This document shows positions 5,958-11,363 of a stretch of 11,363 bases of DNA, piece after piece; the stretch's first letter is position 1; each line of letters opens with the position of its first letter. Position numbers and translations under genes: made by a program. This DNA comes from Pseudomonadota bacterium. Lineage in GTDB: Bacteria; Bdellovibrionota_C; UBA2361; OMIW01. The notes beneath the pieces are model-generated. The model saw only the letters and a program-made list of their open reading frames with translations, was not told the origin of the DNA and searched no databases. Where the stretch lies: the NCBI GenBank assembly GCA_900299205.1, contig OMIW01000181.1, positions 1-11,363 on the forward strand, written 5' to 3'.

Positions 5958-6674
5958 TTATTCCTCCTCTTTGAGAGAGAAAGATTTCTTCTGCTTTTCG
6001 GCGAATTTTCTCACTCGTGAACTTGCGCCTGAATAGGCGACCATTTTCCGGGGGATAATAGGTGGCGTAGGAACCTCATCGAAAATTTCCGTGGCCATTT
6101 CGAAATACAAAGCCAACTCATCCTCGTTGAGACCCTGCAGAACCGTTGCTGCCGATCTCAACTCTCTGATCGCCACTCCGGCTGGAAGAGCACTACAATA
6201 GTTGTACCAAACGGAGTCGAGCTTTGAGATGATCTCATCGAGGAGAAGTCGAATTGCCTGCTTGCGACGGGCAAGCGCGCGTTGTTTCTTTACTGCGGTC
6301 GACAGTGCAATGACCCCGGCGAGGTCCTCAACACTGAAGGGAGACATCAGGATTCCGTTGGCCCCACTGAGAAGGGTCTGCGCGACATTACCTACGGACT
6401 GGTCTTTGCTATCCAAGACCACGACGAACGCAGCGTCACTCGCCTCTTTAAGGAGTAGGCACTTCTCGATGAATTCCTCACTCGCCGCTGCGTCAAGATC
6501 GCTCGCGATAAATATGATGTCGCAAGAGCCCTCGAGATTTTCAAGTCGAGCGACTGCTTCTCGAAACGAAGAAGCCTGCATGACCCGCTGAAGCTCGGAC
6601 ATCAGAGACGTCGCTTGCTTCAGCAACATCCGCTTATAAGCATCAGGATCAACGATGATGGCGGTAAGGGACAT
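5958..6674 (-). CDS. Degenerate receiver-domain (CheY-like) protein
   Basis: This is a 238-residue protein with an N-terminal receiver fold (about 1-125) and an unassigned, mostly helical, charged C-terminal part ending in a Lys/Glu-rich tail. The receiver is seen from AIIVDPDAYKRMLLK (5-19), which keeps the acidic pair D9/D11, from DIIFIAS (52-58), and from SGANGILMSPFSVEDL (103-118). The key phosphorylation residues are lost: the acceptor Asp position reads A57, the conserved Thr/Ser position reads D88, and the conserved Lys before PF reads S111. It is unlikely to be switched by phosphorylation in the usual way. ATG 6674 was chosen because GGAG lies six bases upstream; a GTG at 6677 would be too close to it. 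It lies 64 bases after trxA. Function and partner are unknown. Confidence 0.75.
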   Translation of the reverse strand: MSLTAIIVDPDAYKRMLLKQATSLMSELQRVMQASSFREAVARLENLEGSCDIIFIASDLDAAASEEFIEKCLLLKEASDAAFVVVLDSKDQSVGNVAQTLLSGANGILMSPFSVEDLAGVIALSTAVKKQRALARRKQAIRLLLDEIISKLDSVWYNYCSALPAGVAIRELRSAATVLQGLNEDELALYFEMATEIFDEVPTPPIIPRKMVAYSGASSRVRKFAEKQKKSFSLKEEE

Positions 6675-6738
6675 CACTCACTCCGTTATTCCCCTCGCCA
6701 CCGAAATCGGGTGCTGTCTGACCGATACGGGAGGTAGG

Positions 6739-8027: not shown

Positions 8028-8900
8028 GTGACGATTACGATAGGATCTAATATACCATCGCTGAACGCGCAGCGACAATTGGGAGCCTCAACGGGGGCCT
8101 TGAACAGAGTATTTGAGCGACTCAGTTCAGGAAGTCGGATAAATAACGCATCAGATGATGCCGCCGGCTTGACGATCGCTGATTCATTACGTTCAGATGC
8201 AAAAGTCGCCGGGGTTGGTATACGAAATGCAAGCGACGGCCTCTCGTATATTAGTATCGCAGATGGAGCAATGTCCGAGATCGGCGGCGTGTTAAACCGA
8301 CTTGCTGAGCTTGCTCAGCAATCGGCTAACGGCGTTTACTCTTCAACCCAACGCTCAGCCTTGCAGAATGAATTTTCATCTCTTGGCTCCGAAATCGAGA
8401 GAATTGCTGTTACTACTGCGTTTAACAGTGTCATATTACTCTCGAGTGGTGCGACAACGAACCTCCAAGTTGGATTCAATGGGACTTCGACAAGTCAATT
8501 AACGATAACAAATGTTCGGGCGACGCTGCAGGCTCTCAACTTGGCTGCGTCGGGATCTTCTGTTCAAGTCTACTCCCTGACAGACTCGACGGGAGCATCA
8601 GATACCAATGCACAGTCTGCGGCTCGGCTCGCTCTTGATGCGGTAAACAGAGCAATCGGCTCGCTCTCGTCGACTCGAGGAACTTTGGGAGCAGCCGAGT
8701 CGCGACTTCGAACGAGCATCTCAAACCTCTCGATAACCCGAGAGAACTACCTTTCCGCGGAGAGTCGTATTCGGGATACCGATGTTGCCTCAGATGCAGC
8801 GGAGCTTACCCGATTGAACATCCTGCAACAGGCAGGGTCGTCAATTCTCGCTCAGGCAAACCAGCAACCTCAGATAGCCCTCAGCCTGTTGCGAGGATAA
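8028..8900 (+). CDS. fliC: Flagellin (first copy)
   Basis: Flagellin is exported through the flagellar type III system and polymerises into the filament. The 290-residue protein starts at GTG. It has the N-terminal D0/D1 helices: SLNAQRQLG (11-19), RLSSGSRINNASDDAAGLTIAD (31-52) and RLAELAQQSANG (91-102). A short variable centre covers about 140-195. The C-terminal D1/D0 helices follow: ALDAVNRAIGSLSSTRGTLGAAESRL (202-227), then ENYLSAESRIRDTDVA (239-254) and ILAQANQQPQIALSLLRG. The centre is too short for the outer D2/D3 domains. An intrinsic terminator follows within 15 bases, so it is probably monocistronic. It differs at many positions from the second copy, so the duplication is not recent. 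The C-terminus has an extra Gly after the usual LLR. Confidence 0.97.
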   Translation: MTITIGSNIPSLNAQRQLGASTGALNRVFERLSSGSRINNASDDAAGLTIADSLRSDAKVAGVGIRNASDGLSYISIADGAMSEIGGVLNRLAELAQQSANGVYSSTQRSALQNEFSSLGSEIERIAVTTAFNSVILLSSGATTNLQVGFNGTSTSQLTITNVRATLQALNLAASGSSVQVYSLTDSTGASDTNAQSAARLALDAVNRAIGSLSSTRGTLGAAESRLRTSISNLSITRENYLSAESRIRDTDVASDAAELTRLNILQQAGSSILAQANQQPQIALSLLRG

Positions 8901-9285: not shown

Positions 9286-9312
9286 GGGCCCTCGGAGTAA
9301 TTCTGAGGGCCC
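9286..9312 (-). terminator. Strong GC stem-loop, intrinsic terminator on the minus strand
   Basis: GGGCCCTC (9286-9293) pairs with GAGGGCCC (9305-9312). The stem extends by GGA/TCT, with one wobble, to 11 bp with a five-base GTAAT loop. On the minus strand the stem is followed after one base by TTTTT; on the plus strand no T-tract follows. It therefore reads best as a minus-strand terminator, though no minus-strand gene is seen upstream of it. Confidence 0.5.
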
Positions 9313-9628: not shown

Positions 9629-10486
9629 ATGGCTCCAATCATAGTCGGAAGTAACGTTCAGTCCCTTAATGCGCAAAGGCGCCTAGATAGCACATCGAGC
9701 AGGCTGCGAGATGTGTATGAGCGGTTAAGTTCAGGTCAGCGGATTAACTCTGCTGCTGATGATGCAGCGGGTTTAAATATCGCTGATAGGCTTCGCGGAG
9801 ACGGAAAAATTGCTTCGAGCGCGATACGTAACATAAATGATGGTGTGTCCACCATCGCGATAGCAGATGGCGCGCTTGACCAAATTGGAATCGTGCTAAC
9901 TCGCCTTGCAGAGCTTGCCGAGCAGTCGGCCAATGGCACGTACTCGACTAGTCAGCGTTCCGCGCTCGACCTTGAATTCAACGCTCTCTCATCCGAGATA
10001 GACAGGGTGGCCCGTACGACGACGTTTAACGGAGTGGGGCTTCTCTCCGGCGGTAATGCAATTGTGTTGCAGACAGGCTTCGATTCGGGTGCTGATTCAA
10101 GATTGACGATAAACGCCGTAACGGGGACTCTTCAGGGATTAAACCTCGCGACCGCGACGGCACCTATCTACTCTCTGAATGCTGCGTCATCTGATTTGGG
10201 TGCGTCAGCCTCTCGAAATGCTCTTGATGCGGTGAATCGGGCGATAACCTCTCTCAGCGCAGCACGGGGAACTCTTGGGAGTGCGGAATCGAGGCTCAAC
10301 ACTGCAGTAGCGAATCTTGCGTCAATACGTGAAAACTTTGCGGCTGCGGAGAGCCGAATCAGAGACACCGATGTTGCAGCTGATGCCGCTGAACTGACCA
10401 GACTAAATATTCTTCAGAACGCAGGGGTTAGTGTGCTCACGCAGGCTAACCAGATACCTGCGCTTGCATTGTCTCTCCTCCGTTAG
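9629..10486 (+). CDS. fliC: Flagellin (second copy)
   Basis: This is a 285-residue filament protein, paralogous to the first copy. The N-terminal D0/D1 region has VGSNVQSLNAQRRL (6-19), RLSSGQRINSAADDAAGLNIAD and RLAELAEQSANGTYSTSQRSAL. The variable centre (about 141-193) is short, so no D2/D3 domains are expected. The C-terminal D1/D0 region has DAVNRAITSLSAARGTL, a RIRDTDVAADAAELTRLNIL segment and the terminal ANQIPALALSLLR. It starts with ATG and a near-perfect Shine-Dalgarno, and ends 28 bases before a strong intrinsic terminator, so it is probably its own transcription unit. Two divergent flagellins suggest a composite filament or differential expression; which copy is major cannot be read from sequence. 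No other flagellar gene (fliD, flaG, fliS) is in the window. Confidence 0.97.
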   Translation: MAPIIVGSNVQSLNAQRRLDSTSSRLRDVYERLSSGQRINSAADDAAGLNIADRLRGDGKIASSAIRNINDGVSTIAIADGALDQIGIVLTRLAELAEQSANGTYSTSQRSALDLEFNALSSEIDRVARTTTFNGVGLLSGGNAIVLQTGFDSGADSRLTINAVTGTLQGLNLATATAPIYSLNAASSDLGASASRNALDAVNRAITSLSAARGTLGSAESRLNTAVANLASIRENFAAAESRIRDTDVAADAAELTRLNILQNAGVSVLTQANQIPALALSLLR

Positions 10487-10514
10487 CGGCTCACCGATGT
10501 TGGGCTCAGGTTCG

Positions 10515-10567
10515 AATGGCCTTTCTTCGGGCATTGTTGAGATTTTTCGAAGAGGGGCCATTTTTTT
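10515..10567 (+). terminator. Intrinsic terminator of second flagellin
   Basis: AATGGCCTTTCTTCG (10515-10529) pairs with CGAAGAGGGGCCATT (10548-10562) over 15 bp, two of them G-T wobbles. Seven T follow (10561-10567, the first two shared with the stem). The loop is 18 bases. It lies 28 bases after the flagellin stop codon. Confidence 0.85.
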
Positions 10568-10574
10568 GGAGTAA

Positions 10575-10640
10575 TCCGGCTCATCGGTTCTCGCTCAGGC
10601 GAATCAGATCACGAGTCTCGCATTGAATCTTCTCCGATAG
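10575..10640 (+). pseudogene. 3'-terminal fossil of a third flagellin gene
   Basis: Twenty-one codons and a TAG stop encode a peptide containing SSVLAQANQITSLALNLLR. This matches the extreme C-terminus of both intact flagellins (ILAQANQQPQIALSLLRG and VLTQANQIPALALSLLR). An in-frame TAA (10572-10574) lies just before it, no start codon or ribosome binding site is present, and the fragment begins right after the T-tract of the second flagellin terminator. The peptide is not identical to either neighbour, so it is not a simple copy of their ends. It shares the 13-base TTCTCGCTCAGGC with the first copy. The rest of the third gene is absent, which points to loss by deletion or recombination inside a former flagellin array. 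It is not expected to be translated. Confidence 0.85.
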
Positions 10641-10667: not shown

Positions 10668-11363
10668 CTACCATCGGCGTCGGAAAACCGCCCTGTGCTC
10701 GTGAAGGTATTTTCGTGGCCTTAACACGAGAATAGCGACGGAGCCTGCAATGAATCCACCGAGGTGCGCGGCATAAGCGACAAGAGAGCCGGAGGGAGCA
10801 GCCGAACCAAATTGTCCCACCAGCTGCATCAAGAACCACCCCCCGAGAACGACGACAGCGGGGAGGTGGATGAGCGACCTGAACACAATCACGGTGATCC
10901 GATTGTGAGGATGAGTAATGAGGTAAGCGCCGAGCACCCCGGCGATAGCACCCGAGGCACCGAGACATGGCATCGGTGAGCGGGTATCGGCCCCGTAGTG
11001 AGCGAGGGTTGCCACCACTCCGCAACCAAGATAAAAGAGCAGAAAACGAAATCGACCGAGACGATCTTCGATTTGGTCACCAAATATCCAAAGGTACACC
11101 ATATTGCCGATGAGATGCCCCCAAGAGCCGTGCATGAACATCGCTGAGAAGGCTGTCAGAAGAAGGGGATGAGGACTTCGGTAGAGGGTGAAGGTGACGG
11201 GTTGATGGTTGATCGCGAGTTTGACCGGGCCGATCATGTCTCGGCCTGCTGTCATCTCAGCCGGAACGAAGGAATAGCCATAGGTGAACGAGTCCCCTCG
11301 CGATAGTTGGAGATACCATCCGATAGCGTTAAGGATAATCACGAGCGGAACGATCACCGGGAA
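10668..11363 (-). CDS. Rhomboid family intramembrane serine protease (5' partial)
   Basis: Rhomboids are inner-membrane proteases that cut membrane proteins within or near their transmembrane segments, using a Ser-His dyad. The visible 231 residues enter the window in frame (FPVIVPLVIILNAIGW, probably in the first membrane helix), so the start lies beyond 11363; the GTG at 11357 is not a likely start. Seen in order are HGSWGHLIGNMVYLWIFGD (conserved His/Asn before helix 2), EDRLG, the catalytic GASGAIAGVLGAY (Ser codon 10953-10955), and AYAAHLGGFIAG with the catalytic His (codon 10764-10766). Several hydrophobic membrane segments lie between. The tail is basic and Arg-rich. A roughly 40-residue insertion after the first helix forms a loop before helix 2. 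The substrate is unknown. It converges with the flagellin fossil. Confidence 0.92.
   Translation of the reverse strand, partial: FPVIVPLVIILNAIGWYLQLSRGDSFTYGYSFVPAEMTAGRDMIGPVKLAINHQPVTFTLYRSPHPLLLTAFSAMFMHGSWGHLIGNMVYLWIFGDQIEDRLGRFRFLLFYLGCGVVATLAHYGADTRSPMPCLGASGAIAGVLGAYLITHPHNRITVIVFRSLIHLPAVVVLGGWFLMQLVGQFGSAAPSGSLVAYAAHLGGFIAGSVAILVLRPRKYLHEHRAVFRRRW

Follow-up and report, generated by a model that had tools for sequence, protein, structure and literature searches.

An orphan flagellin C-terminus behind a tandem flagellin pair, probably left by a lost third copy, in an uncultured deltaproteobacteria-like order

Multiple flagellins, partly adjacent to each other, are known from Stenotrophomonas maltophilia (fliC1-fliC2-fliC3), and flagellin copy number has been credited to within-lineage duplication in the same work (PMC8998449), while Bdellovibrio bacteriovorus also has multiple flagellins, fliC1-fliC6 (PMC2791853). 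The locus described here resembles both of them in having several similar flagellins with conserved ends, some of which lie side by side. However, the genes in those papers are intact, whereas in the window (the whole stretch of DNA analysed, 11,363 nucleotides) one copy appears to be reduced to a 3' remnant of 20 codons. A literature search found no paper on such a flagellin remnant, which by itself says little.

The locus contains two intact flagellins on the forward strand, both with Pfam matches PF00669 and PF00700, namely fla1 (8028..8900), for which we infer the GTG start at 8028 from a GGAGG about 7 bases upstream, and fla2 (9629..10486, 285 aa). They are 62% identical and were recovered as sisters (support 97/91) in a tree of 66 flagellins, in which two flagellin classes of this order can be distinguished. 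In the same tree the branch of fla2 is long (1.26 changes per column vs. 0.61 for its sister fla1), so that fla2, judged by its branch, may be evolving fast. The 728 bases between the two genes hold a perfect hairpin, GGGCCCTC-GGAGTAATTCT-GAGGGCCC (window 9286-9312; -23.3 kcal/mol, z -4.12), which has no T-tract. Behind fla2 there is an intrinsic-terminator-like hairpin with a long stem (10514..10567, forward strand, T-tract 10561-10567), supported by the RNA fold of 10510-10567 (-24.8 kcal/mol, z -4.83), and the fragment which is the subject of this study abuts it. Downstream, the locus is bounded by a convergent rhomboid-family gene (10668..11357, reverse strand, Pfam PF01694), which lies outside the remnant; since the rhomboid homologues of relatives are on different contigs from the compared flagellins, this boundary is not visibly conserved. 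Elsewhere in the window, a 239-aa protein (5958-6677, reverse strand) looks by eye like a response-regulator receiver, with no Pfam match at E 1e-3.

The fragment (10578..10640, forward strand) was characterised by profile, HMM, tail alignment and tblastn. Its frame at 10578-10637 reads GSSVLAQANQITSLALNLLR, which as a sequence is unmistakable as a flagellin C-terminus, and it ends at the native stop TAG (10638-10640). The original prediction of a flagellin C-terminal fossil after the second flagellin is thus borne out, although the 21 codons plus stop that it counted are obtained only if TCC at 10575-10577 is included; otherwise there are 20 codons and the TAG. With a position matrix for which 64 loci supplied 74 distinct intact tails, the fragment scored 46.6 bits, the intact tails themselves scoring 52 to 73, and in six frames of these 64 loci nothing else outside flagellin genes reached at least 8 bits, except three genes truncated by contig ends. 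The flagellin HMM, with all HMMER filters off, matched the fragment at E 1.2e-6 over model positions 266-289 of 289, which is the C-terminal helix, and between the genes of the window it found no further piece of flagellin (next best E 2.1). The RNA fold of the fragment is ordinary (z -1.03), and Rfam gave no match.

No start codon precedes the fragment, as the original prediction of a startless piece within about eight bases of the T-tract had it, and the upstream in-frame codon at 10572-10574 is TAA; with start and body missing, the fragment is unable to make a flagellin. The homology could begin as early as 10566, since both the HMM and tblastn include the residues L-E-stop-S (LE*S, 10566-10577), but this extension adds only trivially to the score, and we therefore leave the breakpoint at 10566-10578, which puts the start of the fragment 0-10 bases from the T-tract of fla2. 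This position, right at the end of the terminator, together with the origin of fla1 or fla2 by duplication in this lineage, which their sister relationship implies, could mean that fla2 and its terminator replaced the body of an older flagellin, by insertion into it or by recombination across it, and left the tail of that gene behind fla2. We hold this to be quite improbable, as the junction has no extended repeat: when 10550-10595 was compared with the rest of the window, the longest match was 9 bases in direct and 11 bases in inverted orientation. The same comparison bears on the possibility that the metagenome assembler misjoined two flagellin contexts. The window is a complete contig of a fragmented 2.45 Mb assembly (206 contigs, 89.75% complete), and repetition is typical of flagellin arrays, but a direct junction repeat of at most 9 bases within the window is too short for the usual assembly overlap, and an artefact of this kind seems very unlikely to us.

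The fragment is distinct from both intact copies of the locus, as had been proposed, with 23 of 60 bases differing from the tail of fla2 (13 of them at third codon positions) and 24 of 60 from that of fla1 (14 at third positions). Because these differences are rich in third positions, the fragment would have diverged as a coding gene before it was lost. It is not a copy of the third intact flagellin of the genome, on contig C142, either, and when scored by class it fits that of fla1 and fla2 about 17 bits better (47.0 bits) than the class of the C142 gene (29.8 bits). In the alignment with the 3' ends of flagellin genes in relatives, suggested along with the original prediction, the closest tail differs from the fragment at 17 of 60 bases. 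In one place the fragment has Thr where the intact tails have Pro (107/107), a modest sign of relaxed constraint, limited to a single residue, and such as a sequence released from selection should show. On these comparisons, the fragment is best described as the tail of a paralogue which is separate from the intact copies, belongs to the same class as fla1 and fla2 and is apparently no longer fully constrained. Since there is little decay apart from this one residue, the putative loss must be fairly recent.

These comparisons also weigh on another origin, in which unequal or illegitimate recombination brought a copy of no more than the 3' end of a flagellin here and the locus never had a full third gene. 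With only about 20 codons left and no other flagellin recognisable in the intergenic DNA, such a partial duplication has something to recommend it, but none of the three intact copies of the genome resembles the fragment closely, and even this origin would thus call for a source flagellin that is lost or was not sampled. Moreover, the right end coincides with the natural stop, which is at least as well accounted for by a deletion sparing the last part of the gene. We therefore consider it unlikely, albeit the strongest competitor to a lost third gene.

Beyond the window, the host genome has one intact flagellin (contig C142) and two flagellin-like genes. One of these two, at C134:14525-15262, is about 300 residues long with weak Flagellin_N and Flagellin_C matches, and is distinct from the FlgL-like gene on contig C171. 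The C142 flagellin (C142:20047-20898) is the host's one member of its class, vs. a close tandem pair of this class in seven relatives in the tree, and the second copy may have been lost in the host or be absent from the assembly. No orphan flagellin N-terminus was found elsewhere in the incomplete assembly, where one set of five genes accounts for both the five PF00669 matches and the PF00700 matches.

For the comparison with relatives we used 95 loci with 146 complete tails from 40 related genomes, all outside the host's own family, plus 79 named loci with 109 complete tails, and neither the 95 nor the 79 loci contained a second orphan tail. Tandem flagellins are common in the group: the window and the loci of relatives together gave 34 runs of two, 3 of three and 2 of five genes, the median gap being 444 bases. 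One five-flagellin array, in the related genome G026, has a decayed flagellin between intact copies (locus L102, 7391-7723; 38% identity over 106 residues, E 6e-15), the middle part of which is in another frame and contains a stop. The decayed gene as a whole (L102:7391-7981) lies within a 1.95 kb gap of that array, and its N-terminal part is 38% identical to its neighbour. Both this gene and the fragment in the window are flagellin remnants without function, in flagellin arrays of one and the same order. In L102, however, it is the N-terminal and middle parts that survive, with heavy mutation, whereas here only an intact-looking C-terminal end is left; the pseudogene of L102 is different from, and older than, our fragment. 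A related array has a similar-sized gap at the matching place with no recognisable remnant, and the arrays of G013 and G012 have gaps of about 1.9-2.0 kb, in which tblastn found no flagellin piece. The decayed copy and the remnant-free matching gap mean that copy loss in these arrays is seen independently of the window.

Twenty codons alone cannot prove a former whole gene. However, given the tail of a distinct paralogue, its assignment to the locus's class, the broken invariant residue, the commonness of tandems and the decaying copy in another array, we think it probable that the fragment is the 3' end left after deletion of a third tandem flagellin of the fla1/fla2 class. The interpretation given in the original prediction is supported in part, in that the distinct tail of the locus's own class, the missing start and the lost invariant residue are what we observe, while the full copy and its deletion are what we infer from them, as the simplest account. 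A third flagellin would once have stood in tandem with fla1 and fla2, and a deletion that began just past the terminator of fla2 and stopped about 20 codons short of the third gene's end would have removed the promoter, start and body of that gene. The remnant, lacking a start, preceded by an in-frame stop and sitting behind a terminator, would not be translated and would now be drifting.

Two further suggestions of the original prediction were not supported. The repeat GGAGTAAT, the first copy of which lies at 9294-9301 (not 9293-9300), had been taken as a weak hint of the recombination site, but 22% of the 8-mers of the window have another copy on the same strand and in 82% of its 10-base stretches one or more repeated 8-mers begin, so this repeat is no more than chance would give and is uninformative. 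It had also been suggested that the fragment could serve as homology for flagellin gene exchange. Bacterial homologous recombination usually needs more than about 20 bases, and the longest exact match between the fragment and an intact flagellin of the host is 13 bases, which makes such exchange unlikely. A donor cassette for gene conversion would have long identity with an expressed copy and be one of several silent cassettes; here the fragment is a single one in the examined loci of the host. That the 3' piece has been kept for a function, e.g., by serving as a patch for recombination or by forming part of the 3' end when fla2 transcripts read through, is hardly credible in our opinion.

A deletion remnant in a flagellin array is an ordinary outcome of gene turnover. 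Its use is limited to a data point on flagellin copy-number change, leaving views of flagellar biology unaltered; as an example of copy loss it is clean, and it comes from the flagellin array of an uncultured order that is deltaproteobacteria-like.
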